Source: Alteromonas sp. IB21 (GTDB lineage Bacteria; Pseudomonadota; Gammaproteobacteria; Enterobacterales; Alteromonadaceae). From it: DNA of 64,000 bases. Under the pieces are notes generated by a model. It did not search any database. It saw nothing but the letters and a program-made list of their open reading frames with translations, and was not told the DNA's origin. The stretch covers positions 124,001 to 188,000 of the forward strand of contig NZ_JAEFCD010000002.1 in NCBI RefSeq assembly GCF_016405965.1. Direction: 5' to 3'. Below are positions 52,716 to 61,297 of this stretch, in pieces (positions within the stretch are counted from its first letter, which is position 1; the number at the start of each line of letters is the position of its first letter). The position numbers were made by a program, and so were the translations under genes.

Positions 52716-53387
52716 CTATACCTGCCAATTGATGGGGTCTTTACCCTTGGCAACAAGGTATTGGTTAGTTTGACTGAAGTGTTTACAACCTAAAAAACCT
52801 CTGTGTGCTGAGAGTGGCGACGGATGAGGCGCATGTAAGACTTGGTGTTTTTCACGGTCTATGTGCTTACCTTTCTTCTGCGCGTGACTCCCCCACAAAA
52901 GAAACACTACGTTTTTGCAGTGTTCATTGACGGCATCAATAACTTTATCTGTGAAAGTTTCCCACCCCCACTTTGCATGACTATGTGCCTTGCCCTGCTC
53001 GACAGTGAGAACAGTATTTAGCAACAACACACCTTGCTCTGCCCATGACGTGAGCGTACCGTGATTAGGTTCGACAAAGACGTCGATGTCGGTCAATAAC
53101 TCTTTGTACATGTTTTTAAGTGATGGCGGTGTTTTAACGCCTGCTTTTACCGAAAAACAGAGACCGTGGGCTTGATTAGGTCCATGATAAGGATCTTGCC
53201 CTAATATCACGACTTTAACCTGGTCGAGCGGCGTGTATTTAAGTGCGTTAAATACATCAGGCTGAGGCGGGTATATGACGCATCCCGCCTCTCGCGCATG
53301 CTTCACGCGCTCAAGCAATTCAACAAAATAGTCTTTTTGCTTTTCTTCACCAAGCGCGCTCTGCCATGTTGAAACCAATGATGTCAT
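52716..53387 (-). CDS. ung: Uracil-DNA glycosylase
   Basis: A 223-residue base-excision repair enzyme removing uracil from DNA. The water-activating loop is [18 protein letters not shown] and the Leu intercalation loop [14 protein letters not shown]. The ATG overlaps the thrC stop by one base (TAATG), so ung is at least partly translated from the threonine operon transcript. Confidence 0.97.
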
Positions 53388-54670
53388 TACTTCAATAAGT
53401 CCATCATATGCTGTTTAAGTGCATCGTAAGACGCTGGTAAGTCTACGGCTAAACTATCTTCACCTGCCACGTCGGCCAACGGCTTAGGTAAGCTGATAGG
53501 GTTACCTAACACGTTTTCTACGGTTTCTCTAAACTTGGCTGGATGTGCAGTGCCCAAGAACAAACCAATTTCACCGGCTTCTAAGTCATGATTTACCGCG
53601 CGGTAGGCAATGGCGGCATGTGGTTCACTGGTATAGCCTTGTTGCGCTAATTGACGCATAGCAAGCTGAGTATACTCTTCATCGACCATCTCACCTTTAA
53701 GGCACGCTTTGTCAATGTAACCACGCTCAATAAGGGCCTCAATACGGGGCCAGTTATTTGGCTGGCTCACATCCATGGCATTAGACATTGTCGCTACGGT
53801 CGCCTTAGGGTCCCACTCACCGGTTTTAAGGTAGCGAGGCACGGTGTCGTTCAAGTTAGTCGCTGCAATAAAGCGCTTAATTGGTAGGCCTAACGATTTA
53901 GCAATCATACCTGCCGTAAGGTTACCAAAGTTTCCGCTAGGTACCGAGACAACAACTTGGTCGCGCTTTTCTTTAGGCAGTTGGCTAACCGCTTCAAAGT
54001 AGTAGCAAACCTGGGCTAATAAACGGCTAATGTTGATTGAATTTGCTGAGTTTAGGTGAAGGCCTTCACGTACGTCAGGATCATCAAACGCGGTTTTCAC
54101 CAACGATTGACACGCATCAAAGTCAGACTCTATTGCCACGGTATGGATGTTACCGCCTAGCGTGGTGAATAGCTTTTCCTGTAGCGCACTGATTTTGCCC
54201 TTGGGGAACAAGATAACCACGTTGATATTTTCAATACCGTGGAATGCATGAGCGACAGCAGCGCCTGTATCGCCTGACGTTGCGGTTAAGATAGTCACTG
54301 GCTTGCCTTCGCTGATGCGCGAAAGGGTTTGCGCCATAAAGCGGCCGCCGAAGTCTTTAAACGCCAGCGTTGGACCGTGGAAAAGCTCTAAGCAGTACAC
54401 GTTGTCATTCACTTGCTCAACTGGCGCACCAAAAGCAAACGCAGCCTGTACAATTTCTTCTAGCTCGCCATTGCCTAGTTCATCACCAATCAGCGCACGA
54501 AGTACGTCAATGCTGCGCTCGACAAACGGTTTTTCCAACAGTTCATCAATATTGTCTAGAGTAGGAATATGCTCTGGAAAATAAAGCCCTTGGTTTTTGC
54601 CTAAGCCGCGCTTTACCGCGTCAGCAAAATTCGCTGTGTCCGATGAATCTTTTAAATTTACCAATTCCAC
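53387..54670 (-). CDS. thrC: Threonine synthase
   Basis: A 427-residue PLP enzyme converting O-phosphohomoserine to threonine. The PLP Lys is in [16 protein letters not shown] and the phosphate loop is [16 protein letters not shown] start with AAGGT upstream. It lies 160 bases after thrB and is directly followed by ung. Confidence 0.97.
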
Positions 54671-54831: not shown

Positions 54832-55779
54832 TTATTCAGAAATTAGCGTGCCCTGGCTAGGGATTTGGCACACATGACTAAAACCGTCTTCGTTCTGAAT
54901 GTAGTTCTCAGTTAAATAGGCTGCGACCTTTTCTGCCTGCGCTTTCGATGAGCAAACCGCAAACACCGTTGGGCCTGAGCCGGAAATACCGAACGCCAGC
55001 GCGCCGGTTTCTTCGCTAAACGCGCGGGCTTCATCGAAGCCTGGCAGTAGCGACTTTCTGTAGGGCTCGGCGATAACATCTTTCATGACCGACGCAGCTA
55101 AGTCAAAGTTGCCTGCATGTAACGCGTGTACAAATACGCCAAGCTGGCGGCCAAAGGTTAGCGCCGTCGCCATATCCACTTGCTTAGGCAATATATCTCG
55201 TGCAGCCGCTGTCGACACGCTAATGCCCGAATAACAAATGGCGTAGTACCAGTCGTCGTTCAGAGGTAATGACAGTGTGACAGGCGCGTCGCTCCCCGTC
55301 ATTAGCGTCATGCCGCCCAAATAACACGGTGCTACGTTGTCATAGTGAACGCTACCGCTAATTTGACCTTCTAGCTCGCCCATCATGATAAGTAACGTAT
55401 CTTGGTCAAACGGCGTATCGAAGTAAGCATTTAGCGCTGCGAACGCCGCCACTATTGAACTGGCGCTTGAACCTAAGCCGCTACCAATAGGCAAGTTTTT
55501 GTGAAGCGTTAGGGCTACCGGAGAAGTCGGTTTTCCAACCTTTTCCATTTGCTCACAAAAATAGTGATAGCACTTGGTGACAATATTGCTATCTGCATCA
55601 CCTGGAAGCTTATGGGCAAAGCGCCCTACTGTTTCTAACGAAAATGATTGAGCTGCTTTTATTTCAACTTCATCACCTAGCTTAGTGCCGTCAACAGGCG
55701 CAAGCGCCGCGCCAAGTACGTCAAAGCCTAAGCTTACATTTCCAATTGATGCCGGCGCAAAGGCCTTGAGTGCTTTCAT
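54832..55779 (-). CDS. thrB: Homoserine kinase
   Basis: A 315-residue GHMP kinase phosphorylating homoserine. Motif 2 is NLPIGSGLGSSASSIVAAFAAL and motif 3 GISGSGPTVFAVCSS. It lies between thrA (135 bases upstream) and thrC, the usual order of the threonine operon. Confidence 0.97.
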   Translation of the reverse strand: MKALKAFAPASIGNVSLGFDVLGAALAPVDGTKLGDEVEIKAAQSFSLETVGRFAHKLPGDADSNIVTKCYHYFCEQMEKVGKPTSPVALTLHKNLPIGSGLGSSASSIVAAFAALNAYFDTPFDQDTLLIMMGELEGQISGSVHYDNVAPCYLGGMTLMTGSDAPVTLSLPLNDDWYYAICYSGISVSTAAARDILPKQVDMATALTFGRQLGVFVHALHAGNFDLAASVMKDVIAEPYRKSLLPGFDEARAFSEETGALAFGISGSGPTVFAVCSSKAQAEKVAAYLTENYIQNEDGFSHVCQIPSQGTLISE

Positions 55780-55914: not shown

Positions 55915-58380
55915 TTAATGGGCCATTTGTTTCCACGGCATAGTACGCAGAATGTCAGCAAACACCCCTGCAGCCGTTACCGTACCGCCTGCACCATAAC
56001 CCCTGATTACATAAGGGATTGGGCTGTAGTAATCGCTGTTGATAGCCAGTGCATTTTCGCCATCTTTTACCTGTGAAAGCGGGTTGCTCGCCGGCACTGC
56101 TTGAATACTTACTTTACATTTACCGTCTTCTATACTGCCAATATAACGAAGCACTTTGCCTTCTGCTTTGGCTGCTTCCACTTTTTCATTTATTGCAGCA
56201 TCGAGCTCTGGGAGCTGGTGCATAAATTCGTCAATGGAACAATCTTCAGCAAAACCTGCTGGCAATACTGACTCAATCTCTATATCGGAAAGTTCAAGTT
56301 CCAAGTCGGCTTCTCGGGCCATAATAAGCAGCTTACGCGCCACATCCATGCCGCTTAAGTCGTCACGTGGGTCAGGCTCAGTGAAACCGTTATCTTTTGC
56401 TGTTTGTGTCGCTTGCGACAAGCTCATGCCTTCTTCAAGTTTCCCAAACACATAAGACAAGCTGCCTGACAAAATCCCTTCAAAGCGATGCAGAACGTCA
56501 CCTGCGCTAAACAGCTTTTGCAGGTTATCAATAACCGGAAGGCCTGCGCCCACTGTCGTCTCATAAAGGTATTGGCGGTTAGTAGAAAGTGCCGTTTTGC
56601 GCAGCTTACGGTAATAAGCCATGGCACTGGTATTCGCCTTTTTGTTCGGCGTCACTACGTGGAAACCACTTTCCATCATATCAACGTACTGATTGGCAAT
56701 AGCTTCATGGCTGGTGCAGTCAACAATAACCGGGTTTACCAAGCTATTGTCGTTCGCAAACTGGTGTAAGCGCTCTACGCTTAATCCTTCGCTTGCTGAC
56801 TCAAGGGCTGCTTTCCAATCACCGCTAAGCTCAATGCCCTGGCTGTTTAACAGCAGCTTGCGGCTATTGGCAATGCCGTAAACTCGCAGCTGTATATTGC
56901 GCTTTAACAATGCTGGCTGTTGCTTTTCAATCTGCCCTAGCAGTTCAGTGCCAACGTTGCCACACCCCACTAGGAACACGTCTATGGTATGGCGGTCAGA
57001 GAAAAAATTCTGGTGAATAACTTTTACTGCTTTTTTAGCGCGCTTGCTTTCAATAACCGTAGAGATTGAGCGCTCAGAAGAGCCCTGTGCGATGGCTACG
57101 TTGTTAACTCGCGCTTGCGCTAGCGAGTTAAAGAAACGGGCTGCCAAGCCTTTGGTTTGACGCATACCGTCACCTACTAAGGTAACAATGGCCAAGTCGT
57201 GACGCACTTCGATAGGATCAAGAAGCTGATTTTGAAGCTCAAGCGCAAATGCATCTTCAAGTAGGGTCAACGCGCGATTAGCATCTTTGCTTTGAATACA
57301 AAAACTGATTGAATATTCTGAAGAAGACTGGGTAATCAAGCTGATAGAGATATTCGCATTCGACATGACCTCAAACACGCGACTTGCCATGCCTACCATG
57401 CCTTTAAGACCAGGGCCTGCAACGTTAAACATAGTTACATTGTCGAGCTGAGAAATACCTTTAACCGACGTCCATACTTCACTTTTCTCGTTACTAATAA
57501 GCGTACCCGGCGCCGCAGGATTGAGCGTATTACGGATCAAACAAGGGATATGATGTTGGGCAATAGGGCCAATGGTTTTCGGGTGAAGTACTTTAGCACC
57601 AAAATAAGACAGCTCCATAGCTTCTTGATAAGTCAATTTATCAAGCAGTACCGCACCTTCTACTTGGTTCGGGTCAGCATTATACACACCGTCTACGTCG
57701 GTCCAGATTTCACAGCAGCTTGCATCGATACAGGCCGCTAAAATGGCCGCAGAATAGTCTGAACCGTTGCGTCCCAGCGTTACTTTTTCGCCCGCTTCGT
57801 TTGCGGCAACGAAGCCCGGCATAACTAAGAATTCGCTGCCATCGCAAGGCACATCTGAAAAACGCGCTTTGCTGAGTGACACATCGGCAATACTGTCTAG
57901 GTAGTCACCTTCAGCAAGCACATACTTAACCGGGTCGATAACGCGATTAGTTATTCCCTTGGCGGATAGCATAGCGCTAAACAGGGTGACCGAGATATAT
58001 TCACCGATACTTAGGATACCCGCAGCTACATTATCAGGCGCCACACCTAAAAGTTTGATGCCTTCAAGGTGCTGCTTTAATACACTGAGGTGACTATTGA
58101 TAAAATCTACCACGCTTGCGTGGGCAAAGCCGTCGAGTTCTTCGTTAAGGTTGTTGGCAATGCCGGTAACCGTGTCGTTCAGTTTAGTTAATAACGGTTG
58201 GAAATCTTCACCCGCGGCTGCTTGTTCACACAATAGTGAAAGCGCGTTCGTTACCCCCTTAGGGGCAGAGAGTACAACCGCAGCACCGTCGGTTTGGTGG
58301 GTTGCCGTGCTAATTTCCATAACGCGCATGTATCGCGGTGCATCGGCTAGAGAAGAACCCCCAAACTTTAAGACTTTCAT
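55915..58380 (-). CDS. thrA: Bifunctional aspartokinase I/homoserine dehydrogenase I
   Basis: An 821-residue enzyme for the first and third steps of the threonine branch. The aspartokinase half starts MKVLKFGGSSLADAPRYM; two ACT domains lie around 320-450 (threonine feedback site); the dehydrogenase half has VFLVGCGNVGTELLGQ and PNKKANTSAMAYYRKL. I set the start at 58380 with AAGGAG upstream; a frame of 8 more codons has none. Expression is governed by the leader peptide and attenuator described below. Confidence 0.97.
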   Translation of the reverse strand: MKVLKFGGSSLADAPRYMRVMEISTATHQTDGAAVVLSAPKGVTNALSLLCEQAAAGEDFQPLLTKLNDTVTGIANNLNEELDGFAHASVVDFINSHLSVLKQHLEGIKLLGVAPDNVAAGILSIGEYISVTLFSAMLSAKGITNRVIDPVKYVLAEGDYLDSIADVSLSKARFSDVPCDGSEFLVMPGFVAANEAGEKVTLGRNGSDYSAAILAACIDASCCEIWTDVDGVYNADPNQVEGAVLLDKLTYQEAMELSYFGAKVLHPKTIGPIAQHHIPCLIRNTLNPAAPGTLISNEKSEVWTSVKGISQLDNVTMFNVAGPGLKGMVGMASRVFEVMSNANISISLITQSSSEYSISFCIQSKDANRALTLLEDAFALELQNQLLDPIEVRHDLAIVTLVGDGMRQTKGLAARFFNSLAQARVNNVAIAQGSSERSISTVIESKRAKKAVKVIHQNFFSDRHTIDVFLVGCGNVGTELLGQIEKQQPALLKRNIQLRVYGIANSRKLLLNSQGIELSGDWKAALESASEGLSVERLHQFANDNSLVNPVIVDCTSHEAIANQYVDMMESGFHVVTPNKKANTSAMAYYRKLRKTALSTNRQYLYETTVGAGLPVIDNLQKLFSAGDVLHRFEGILSGSLSYVFGKLEEGMSLSQATQTAKDNGFTEPDPRDDLSGMDVARKLLIMAREADLELELSDIEIESVLPAGFAEDCSIDEFMHQLPELDAAINEKVEAAKAEGKVLRYIGSIEDGKCKVSIQAVPASNPLSQVKDGENALAINSDYYSPIPYVIRGYGAGGTVTAAGVFADILRTMPWKQMAH

Positions 58381-58418: not shown

Positions 58419-58451
58419 AAAAAAAAGCCCGCTCTGTGTTAGGCGGGCTTT
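58419..58451 (-). terminator. Threonine operon attenuator
   Basis: On the minus strand AAAGCCCGC pairs with GCGGGCTTT around a 10-base loop and runs into eight T residues. It lies between the leader peptide stop and the thrA start, as expected of a transcription attenuator controlled by leader translation. Confidence 0.9.
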
Positions 58452-58473: not shown

Positions 58474-58545
58474 CTAGCCAGCGACCGCCCTTTTTAAGGT
58501 GGTAATCGACATCATGGTGGTGCGAGTAAGTAGAATCTTTTTCAT
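58474..58545 (-). CDS. thrL: Threonine operon leader peptide
   Basis: A 23-residue ORF with five Thr (positions 7, 9, 10, 15, 16) and two Ile codons (4, 14), beginning MKKILLTRTT. It ends 23 bases before the attenuator stem. Stalling on Thr or Ile codons would prevent the terminator and allow thrA transcription, as in E. coli where ThrL has eight Thr and four Ile. The ribosome site is weak. The presence of both amino acids identifies it as a thr leader rather than chance. Confidence 0.8.
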   Translation of the reverse strand: MKKILLTRTTMMSITTLKRAVAG

Positions 58546-58560
58546 ACAAGCAATTTGCCG

Positions 58561-58574
58561 TATAGACGTCTATA
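58561..58574. promoter_or_regulatory. Palindrome containing a perfect MetJ box before the thr leader
   Basis: TATAGACGTCTATA is a perfect 14-base palindrome whose core AGACGTCT (58564-58571) equals the MetJ consensus half-site. The flanking 8-mers (TGACTTAT and ATACGGCA on the minus strand) each match 5 of 8, so two or three adjacent boxes are possible. It overlaps a -35-like TTGACT and lies 16 bases from the leader ATG. Confidence 0.55.
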
Positions 58575-58792
58575 AGTCAACCGCAGTTTTCACCACACTG
58601 TATTGCAAAAAGTGAAACACTCTTTCAAAAACATTTCTTTTTAAGGTACAAACCCGTTTTACCTCACTACGCCGTTTAAGTGTGATACTACACATTGGCT
58701 TCTCAAAGCCGTATTGCACGGTGCTTGCTGCTATGACAAAGGTACGTCATGCAAAATGAGTAAACAAATGAGCGACCGGCGGCCTTTGCCGA

Positions 58793-61297
58793 CTAATTTA
58801 TTTTGCAAGCTTGCTTCAAAAAGGGCGCAGTTGCGCTTTCCTTATTTTTCGCAACGTCTTTTGGTGTGCCCCACGCCACGATTTGTCCACCGTCCTCGCC
58901 AGCTCCTGGCCCCATATCAATAATGTGGTCACTAGCGGCGGCCACTTGCATATTATGCTCAACCATCACCACGGTATTACCGCTATCCACAAGCGTACTT
59001 AAGTGCTCCAAAAGCAGTGCAGTATCTGAAAGGTGCAAACCTGTGGTCGGTTCGTCCAGCACATAAAGGGTGTTATTGTTTTGCGCACGCTTAAGTTCAG
59101 AGGCCAACTTAATACGCTGGGCCTCCCCTCCTGATAGCTCGGTGGCACTTTGCCCCAGTGTAAGATAACCAAGGCCAACGTTAATTAATGTTTTAAGCCC
59201 TCGCAAAACTACGCTGTTATCCTCAAATACATCCTGCGCCTCGTTTACTGTAAGAGATAAAATATCGGCAATAGAGTATTTTTTATAGTGAATATCTAAA
59301 ACCTCATCCTTAAACCGTGAACCATTACAGGCCGAGCAAGGTGAATACACACTTGGCATAAATAGTAATTCTACCGACACAACACCTAGTCCTTCACAGT
59401 TGGGGCATCGGCCTTTGGTCACATTAAAAGAAAAATGACCGGCATCATACTCACGGCTTTTGGCGTCGTCAGTGTTAGCAAATAAGCGTCTGATTTGGTC
59501 GAACATACCCGTGTAGGTTGCGAGCGTCGAGCGTGGCGTTCTGCCTATAGGAGACTGATCTACAACCACTAAGCGACTAATATTCTCTAATCCGCTGGCG
59601 ATAAAGCCCTCTTGGGTAACCTTATCTTCGGCTGAAAGTAACGCGACCTCGTTAACTTCACCGTCAGTTTTATCTCTAACGCTACCCAATCCCTCTTTCA
59701 CTAGCTCTACCAATGCTTGGCTAATAAGACTCGACTTTCCAGAGCCTGAAACGCCAGTAACCGTTGTCATAACGCCAAGGGGAATATCAATATCAATGTT
59801 GTTTACATTGTTTCTGCTCACGTTTTTAAGACTTAGCGTCAATAATGAGTTGCATTTTTCTCTTGATACGAGGGGTTTGTCATTGAAAACAAATTCTGAG
59901 GTTGGCGAGGTCTCTATGTTCGCGAGTTCATCAACTGGCCCACTGAATATGAGCTCACCACCCTCTTTACCGGCACTAGGGCCAATATCTACTACCCAGT
60001 TAGCCCCTTTAATCACATAGGGGTTATGCTCAACAACCAACAGAGAATTACCCGCTTTAGTAATATCATGAAGCGCATTAACCAAGGACTCGACGTCGCG
60101 AGGGTGCAACCCAGCCGAAGGTTCATCCATAACAAAAACCACGCCGAATAAATTGGATTTTAGCTGAGTAGCGAGGCGCAGTCGCTGTAACTCGCCAACC
60201 GAAATAGTAGTAGTGCTTCTATCTAATGAAAGGTAATGCAGACCTAGCGCGATAATAGGCTTAATTCTATCGATCACATCGTCCGCTATGTTTCTTATGA
60301 CTTGTGCCCTTTCTGAAGTATCACCTGCTACTGAACCCCGCAGCTTATTCATTTTTTCATTAACCTCGCGCAGCGGTAGCCTTGAAAAGTCAATAATATC
60401 GACACCGTCTACCGTAACGTTAAGGGCTTTTTTCTTAAGCTTTTTACCATGACAACGGGGGCACGGTGTAACGGAGAGGAAACGGGAAATACGCTGCTTA
60501 ACTTTTTCTTTTTGTGAGGTTGTAAAGGTATCTAAAACGTGACGCCTAGCGCTTATAAACTTTCCCTTATAGCTAGCAGGTTCGCCCTCTGCTAGCGCTT
60601 TGCGCGTTTGTTCTAGGTTGTAATTTCGATAGACAGGCACCTGTGGCGCCTCGTCTGTATATAAGATCCAATCGCGCGTCGCTTTCGGCAATTCACGCCA
60701 CGGCACATCCACGTCAATATCAAGAGACAGCAGCACCCGGACAAGATTTTTACCTTGCCACGCACCGGGCCAAGCCGCCACAGCCCCTTCTCGAATGGTT
60801 AGGGTATCGTCAGGCACTAAAAGCTGAGCTTGAGTATCAAACACTTTACCGATACCGTCGCACCGCTCGCATGCGCCTTGAGGCGTGTTGGGTGAAAAGC
60901 CGTCTGCATATATAATAGCTTGGCCTTCTGGGTAATCCCCTGCTCGGGAATAAAGCATACGCAGGCTGTTAGAAAGGGTAGTTATACTGCCAATAGATGA
61001 ACGCACTGACGGCGCTTGGCGACGCTGATGTAAGCCAACGGCTGGCGGTAATCCCTCCAAGGCATCAACTTCTGGCTTTTCGACTTGTTCTATTAGACGC
61101 CGGGCGTAGGGCGATATGGAATCTAAATAACGATGCTGCGCCTCGGCGTACAGCGTACCAAACGCCAACGAGGACTTGCCTGAGCCAGATACGCCGGTAA
61201 AAACTACAACGCAATCTCGAGGTATATCAACGTTGATATTCTTTAAGTTATGTACGCGAGCACCGCGTATCTGAATTTGCCCTTCATCCTTATGCAC
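58793..61297 (-). CDS. Class II UvrA-like ABC ATPase (UvrA2)
   Basis: An 834-residue UvrA paralogue with two ABC ATPase cassettes (Walker A GVSGSGKSSLAFGTLYAEA and GVSGSGKSSLISQAL; signatures VGELQRLRLA and LSGGEAQRIKLA) and zinc-finger pairs (CERCDG, CPRCHG, CPNCEG, CSACNG). It is about 100 residues shorter than canonical UvrA, and the region that binds UvrB is reduced, which defines class II. These proteins are associated with tolerance to DNA-damaging agents and some antibiotics. GTG start with AGGTG upstream. Confidence 0.9.
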   Translation of the reverse strand: MHKDEGQIQIRGARVHNLKNINVDIPRDCVVVFTGVSGSGKSSLAFGTLYAEAQHRYLDSISPYARRLIEQVEKPEVDALEGLPPAVGLHQRRQAPSVRSSIGSITTLSNSLRMLYSRAGDYPEGQAIIYADGFSPNTPQGACERCDGIGKVFDTQAQLLVPDDTLTIREGAVAAWPGAWQGKNLVRVLLSLDIDVDVPWRELPKATRDWILYTDEAPQVPVYRNYNLEQTRKALAEGEPASYKGKFISARRHVLDTFTTSQKEKVKQRISRFLSVTPCPRCHGKKLKKKALNVTVDGVDIIDFSRLPLREVNEKMNKLRGSVAGDTSERAQVIRNIADDVIDRIKPIIALGLHYLSLDRSTTTISVGELQRLRLATQLKSNLFGVVFVMDEPSAGLHPRDVESLVNALHDITKAGNSLLVVEHNPYVIKGANWVVDIGPSAGKEGGELIFSGPVDELANIETSPTSEFVFNDKPLVSREKCNSLLTLSLKNVSRNNVNNIDIDIPLGVMTTVTGVSGSGKSSLISQALVELVKEGLGSVRDKTDGEVNEVALLSAEDKVTQEGFIASGLENISRLVVVDQSPIGRTPRSTLATYTGMFDQIRRLFANTDDAKSREYDAGHFSFNVTKGRCPNCEGLGVVSVELLFMPSVYSPCSACNGSRFKDEVLDIHYKKYSIADILSLTVNEAQDVFEDNSVVLRGLKTLINVGLGYLTLGQSATELSGGEAQRIKLASELKRAQNNNTLYVLDEPTTGLHLSDTALLLEHLSTLVDSGNTVVMVEHNMQVAAASDHIIDMGPGAGEDGGQIVAWGTPKDVAKNKESATAPFLKQACKIN

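Follow-up and report, generated by a model that had tools for sequence, protein, structure and literature searches.

Does the methionine repressor MetJ act on the threonine operon of Alteromonas? The question is raised by a perfect 14-bp palindrome, TATAGACGTCTATA, which we read directly at positions 58,561-58,574 (minus strand) of the DNA analyzed here, a 64-kb stretch of Alteromonas sp. IB21 that we call the window. ThrA is the source of homoserine for threonine and methionine both. As described for E. coli, a dedicated enzyme, MetL, serves the methionine branch there; it is encoded in an operon with metB and is under MetJ (PMC3228920, PMC4239095). The palindrome encloses an exact copy, at 58,564-58,571, of the 8-bp metbox consensus AGACGTCT (PMC4239095), and this copy sits within the spacer of the proposed thrABC promoter. 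An earlier note on this DNA had pointed to the palindrome in the thrA promoter and read it as a MetJ site; the sequence confirms the former, and the presence of metJ together with conservation of the box upstream of thrA supports the latter. Judging from sequence comparison, we put at about 84% the probability that this palindrome serves MetJ as an operator within the spacer of the thrABC promoter, repressing with S-adenosylmethionine.

The link itself is already predicted in print, which the earlier note did not mention. For Alteromonadales, Leyn et al. (2014) name both thrABC and serA as new targets predicted for MetJ, the thrABC prediction taking up one sentence of the paper (PMC4239095). 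Our proposal concerns the same regulator, operon and order, and a serA box is found here too. The present analysis contributes the position in the promoter, the comparison with promoters whose spacer is free, the box at a second register and the counts of homoserine dehydrogenase domains described below. We found no experimental test of MetJ control of thrABC in the literature searched, which took in few subscription journals; thrA is absent from Table 2 of metbox genes in the main text of Liu et al. (2011) (PMC3228920), and the part of PMC5343134 consulted mentions neither thrA nor threonine. For E. coli, the earlier note had held that such control is not part of the scheme. Consistent with this, no octamer in the 336 bases preceding E. 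coli thrA comes closer to AGACGTCT than 6/8.

To place the palindrome, we considered the anatomy of the operon, which lies on the minus strand. The genes are thrA, for the bifunctional aspartokinase I/homoserine dehydrogenase I (55,915-58,380; NF006959, 1200.8 bits, cut-off 726; query 55,915-58,377, with the first codon missing), thrB, for homoserine kinase (54,832-55,779; TIGR00191, 294.5 bits, cut-off 168.25), and thrC, for threonine synthase (53,387-54,670; TIGR00260, 367.9 bits, cut-off 167.1). Among the best 80 named loci, from which records of the genome studied here may be missing, the closest ThrA is that of A. abrolhosensis, at 98% identity. Read along the minus strand from 58,580 to 58,474, the order upstream is TTGACT, TATAGACGTCTATA, CGG, CAAATT, six bases and then a leader that begins with ATG at 58,545. 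The arrangement suggests a promoter with TTGACT (58,575-58,580) as its -35, 17 nt of spacer and CAAATT (58,552-58,557) as its -10, with the palindrome filling the spacer from the base next to the -35. This differs from the earlier placement of the palindrome over the -35, since TTGACT occupies 58,580-58,575 and the palindrome follows it directly, in the interval from the -35 to the -10. That the palindrome precedes the leader stands, with its distance corrected to a thr leader peptide starting at 58,545. The -35 reads TTGACA in 50 of 58 genus members, TTGAC is kept where the box is absent, and its GAC is also part of a weak flanking metbox (5/8). The putative -10 is assigned from spacing and conservation; it matches TATAAT at 3 of 6 positions, a consensus scan made no -10 call there, and members without the box carry a GGCATTTT-like sequence in its place.

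The leader follows at once. We assign to thrL a 23-residue peptide, MKKILLTRTTMMSITTLKRAVAG (58,474-58,545, minus strand), which has 5 Thr and 2 Ile codons and whose ATG lies 6 nt past the -10, about where the transcript is expected to start; a shorter leader beginning MMSITT was dropped in its favor. A terminator stem-loop with a U run lies at 58,424-58,451 (minus strand; the stem is listed on the plus strand, and the minus-strand fold shows the U run). By this anatomy, a Thr/Ile leader peptide followed by a terminator, the region works like a Thr attenuator. Its match to the Rfam Thr_leader model (RF00506) scored 31.8 bits, below the gathering score of 55, so the model does not place it in the family; a Trp_leader match on the same stretch (36.3 bits, gathering score 41) was put down to a shape common to attenuators. 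The E. coli thrL attenuator likewise has a Thr/Ile-codon leader peptide and then a terminator, with 8 Thr and 4 Ile codons, so that the Alteromonas leader is the poorer in both. E. coli thrL also lies further from its promoter, in contrast to the Alteromonas thrL, which starts about at the expected transcription start.

The distance from TTGAC to the thrL ATG hardly varies in this family. In the Alteromonas group, defined by a ThrA identity to the query of 69% or more, it is 35-36 bases in 84 of 87 promoters; it is 36-37 in 17 of 18 promoters of a second operator-bearing group described below, and 35-36 in 42 of 44 of the remaining family. G225 is included in these counts and in those of the promoter skeleton. 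A start codon held at this distance suggests that the thr leader mRNA would be leaderless or nearly so, and thrL translation may begin about at the transcription start. Ten leaderless transcripts are mentioned in the transcription start map of A. macleodii Te101, whose main text does not contain the words threonine or thrA (PMC5864184).

The metbox by itself carries little weight. The window has one copy. Its dinucleotide shuffles gave a mean of 0.44 copies and at least one copy in 34 of 100 cases, in line with the earlier view that a single such 8-mer is no surprise by chance. Genome-wide there are 33 copies of AGACGTCT in 4.54 Mb, compared with 65 of the reversed control word, and the box is thus not over-represented. 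The case rests on position and conservation, not on the word.

Conservation within the genus is strict. ThrA is present in all 59 genus genomes, and 57 fetched upstream regions plus the window gave a set of 58 (G057 was left out, its contig beginning inside thrA). All 58 have the exact box four bases after TTGAC, at 180 to 229 bases before thrA, and the 10-mer TAGACGTCTA is identical and in the same place in every one. The full palindrome, whose conservation the earlier note had proposed to check, is less uniform than this core: TATAGACGTCTATA is found in 34 of the 58, GATAGACGTCTATA in 21 and GTTAGACGTCTATA in 3, and the outer base is G in the 24 members that lack the perfect 14-mer. A block of 20 columns (58,572-58,553) has 99.7% identity to the window, compared with 55.6% over the 420 aligned upstream columns. 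The 10-mer has thus gone unsubstituted in all 58 regions within upstream DNA of 55.6% mean identity, which argues for lasting selection.

The site is also found beyond the genus. We scored 79 of the best 80 named loci by ThrA, one (L104) having no upstream sequence. Among 52 loci from Alteromonas, Glaciecola, Paraglaciecola, Aestuariibacter, Bowmanella, Lacimicrobium and others, TTGACn4AGACGTCT lies within 1200 bases of thrA in 50; the other two (L119 and L141) have a decayed box but still show TTGACA and CAAATT at unchanged spacing. At one locus, L114, the box is at -686 from thrA. None of the 27 Vibrio, Aliivibrio, Shewanella, Zobellella and Oceanisphaera loci among the same best 80 has AGACGTCT within 1200 bases. 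We also fetched 100 further upstream regions from the family. For Alteromonas-group genomes outside the genus, 29 regions were fetched of 57, a set that partly overlaps the named loci, and 26 of the 29 have the exact box; of the rest, G081 and G198 keep 7/8 and G101 has none. AGACGTCT was absent from the fetched upstream DNA of 44 family genomes outside both operator-bearing groups, and likewise from that of nine genomes of g50, g49 and g35.

These box-free promoters allow us to ask whether the conserved bases simply reflect a promoter, or chance, with no regulator reading them. The site does lie wholly within the promoter, the 8-mer is unremarkable for a window of this size, and promoters that have no box still conserve TTGAC and the sequence surrounding the -10. 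TTGAC followed 35-39 bases on by the ATG of a Thr/Ile-rich leader is found in 43 of the 44 box-free promoters and in 8 of the nine from g50, g49 and g35, and conservation in those 43 covers positions 0-4 and about 21-29 (GGCATTTTA), though it is weaker at a few of them. However, spacer positions 6-17 are nearly free in the same 43 promoters, at 0.1-0.6 bit, which is strong counter-evidence. In the Alteromonas-group promoters (85 of 87 fitted), positions 8-20 hold 1.5-2.0 bits, values inflated by relatedness, as 58 of the 87 come from one genus and the box-free group spans more genera. A spacer that is constrained with the box and nearly free without it indicates that the palindrome is an added, selected element.

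The same exact 8-mer is also found at a second register. In a second group of genera (g18, g42, g45), the sequence TTGACAGACGTCTA is found in 17 of 18 promoters. It places the box 4 bases nearer the -35, so that the exact box follows TTGAC as TTGACAGACGTCT (loci L235, L237, L238, L242, L251 and L253-L264). The next octamer in these 17 matches the consensus at 6/8 in nine, 5/8 in two and 4/8 in six. The shifted box may be an independent gain. With the exact word at two registers in two groups, we give chance or pure promoter constraint next to no probability.

If a regulator reads the site, MetJ is the candidate that the word itself names. Its gene, which the earlier note had suggested looking for, is present once in this genome; 58 of the 59 genomes of the genus have it, as do 194 of 196 in the family. 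As metJ also occurs in family genomes without the box, its presence does not discriminate within the family. In a comparison with the E. coli system, the 8-bp consensus is common to both, and 77 of 100 aligned residues are identical between the two MetJ proteins, with the TVSIP stretch kept. The sole genus genome in which no metJ was found, G049 (thrA upstream region L042), has the operator; it is a draft of about 180 contigs, and the missing gene is possibly an assembly gap.

The other copies of the box point in the same direction. Both adjacent octamers match at 5/8 or better at only 4 of the 33 genomic copies: the thr site, the copies before metA and before metK, and one at locus L006. The copy upstream of serA and the one that separates metF from metJ each have a strong neighbor on one side. 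In the genus, a box of 7-8/8 with an in-register neighbor of at least 6 precedes metJ in 28 of 30 loci and metA in 30 of 30 (30 sampled of 58 and of 59 genomes with a match, respectively).

Some individual copies may be recorded here. The one before serA, the gene for phosphoglycerate dehydrogenase, is a perfect box with a 7/8 neighbor about 190 bases upstream of the gene (L020, 2033-2040). The one at L006 (1922-1929) has neighbors of 5, 5 and 6 of 8 and lies just behind a gene with a weak deacetylase-model match, before two small ORFs and dusC. At L022 (2013-2020) a perfect box lies some 83 bases upstream of a gltB-like gene; it lacks supporting neighbors and is perhaps there by chance.

The site could instead serve a different regulator, for example the MerR-type LiuR. 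MerR-family sites lie in promoter spacers, and the conserved block is, like them, palindromic and in the spacer. LiuR control of thrABC has moreover been predicted in Shewanella (PMC3223726). Against such a regulator, the core matches the MetJ consensus exactly, this word recurs with supporting neighbors before metA and metK and between metF and metJ, and part of the second group has a second in-register box of MetJ type. We therefore consider a LiuR-type operator unlikely, and MetJ the probable binder.

The design of the proposed MetJ operator is unusual. MetJ operators are described as usually made of two or more tandem boxes (PMC4239095). Here the perfect box is flanked in 8-bp register by octamers that match at 5/8 on each side, and the mean octamer match over 102 windows is 4.84 at -8 and 5.01 at +8; part of this match is promoter sequence that is also kept in genomes without the box. 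Outside the genus, 5 of 46 distinct windows have an additional box of 6-7/8, in register and 16 bp upstream. A reading as three full tandem boxes was dropped, because the right GGCA and the left GAC are conserved in box-free promoters too. E. coli MetJ operators include those of metB/J, metF and metC, among others, and compared with their two or more tandem boxes the thr site offers one perfect box with weak neighbors.

Such a site might be bound weakly by MetJ and be a minor element with negligible effect on thrABC. Flanks of only 5/8 that overlap promoter sequence would fit this, as would the two named relatives that lost the box and kept the promoter. Yet TAGACGTCTA is without a single substitution across the genus regions despite their mean upstream identity, and we judge a negligible effect quite unlikely. 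The site is real and selected, and its most likely role is that of a MetJ operator for thrABC, with an unusual one-box form.

What might make MetJ control of thrA useful is suggested by the homoserine dehydrogenase domains. This genome has one, in ThrA, so that MetJ at thrA would act on a shared source of homoserine. In the family sample, 64 of 65 Alteromonas-group genomes have one such domain and G124 has two; in the named set, G249, G262 and G271 (L133; apparently the same genome as G124) of the Alteromonas group have an extra domain in a short frame, that of G271 being 349 aa and not 800 aa. Eighteen genomes of Vibrio/Shewanella type have two or three domains, and in each of these genomes one domain lies in its own frame, 798-820 aa long, a size expected of MetL, a name that was not assigned by a model.

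We considered whether the operator tracks the loss of MetL. This holds only partly: the second operator-bearing group has two homoserine dehydrogenase domains in 18 of 18 sampled genomes, and the nine genomes of g50, g49 and g35 and six others have one domain and no AGACGTCT in the fetched upstream DNA. With two-domain genomes that carry the operator and one-domain genomes that do not, MetL loss is neither required nor sufficient.

In the proposed mechanism, a good supply of S-adenosylmethionine would lead MetJ-SAM to occupy the promoter between -35 and -10 and block RNA polymerase, and less ThrA would be made. Threonine and isoleucine would act later, via the thrL attenuator. Initiation, carrying the methionine signal, and read-through, carrying the threonine/isoleucine signal, would then multiply. 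As to origin, MetJ may have taken over the thr operon via the free spacer where MetL was missing, and likewise in the second group at another register with the second homoserine dehydrogenase domain kept; together with a leaderless thrL, this would make a compact two-signal gate. We offer this as a tentative scenario, to which we would give somewhat less than even chances.

With ThrA the sole homoserine dehydrogenase found and a MetJ-type site on its gene, a branch-point pathway would have been rewired at a promoter. The reading predicts that excess methionine lowers thrABC expression, and threonine limitation could follow. The related promoters with and without the operator also form a useful set for studying how a regulator site originates in a promoter spacer.

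Upstream of the thr promoter, the window encodes a UvrA-like protein of 834 aa (58,793-61,297). Its alignment to UvrA models runs mainly from model position 265 onward, and it scores over the cut-off of TIGR00630 and under that of another UvrA model (880.5 vs 1147). It may be a shorter UvrA paralogue.
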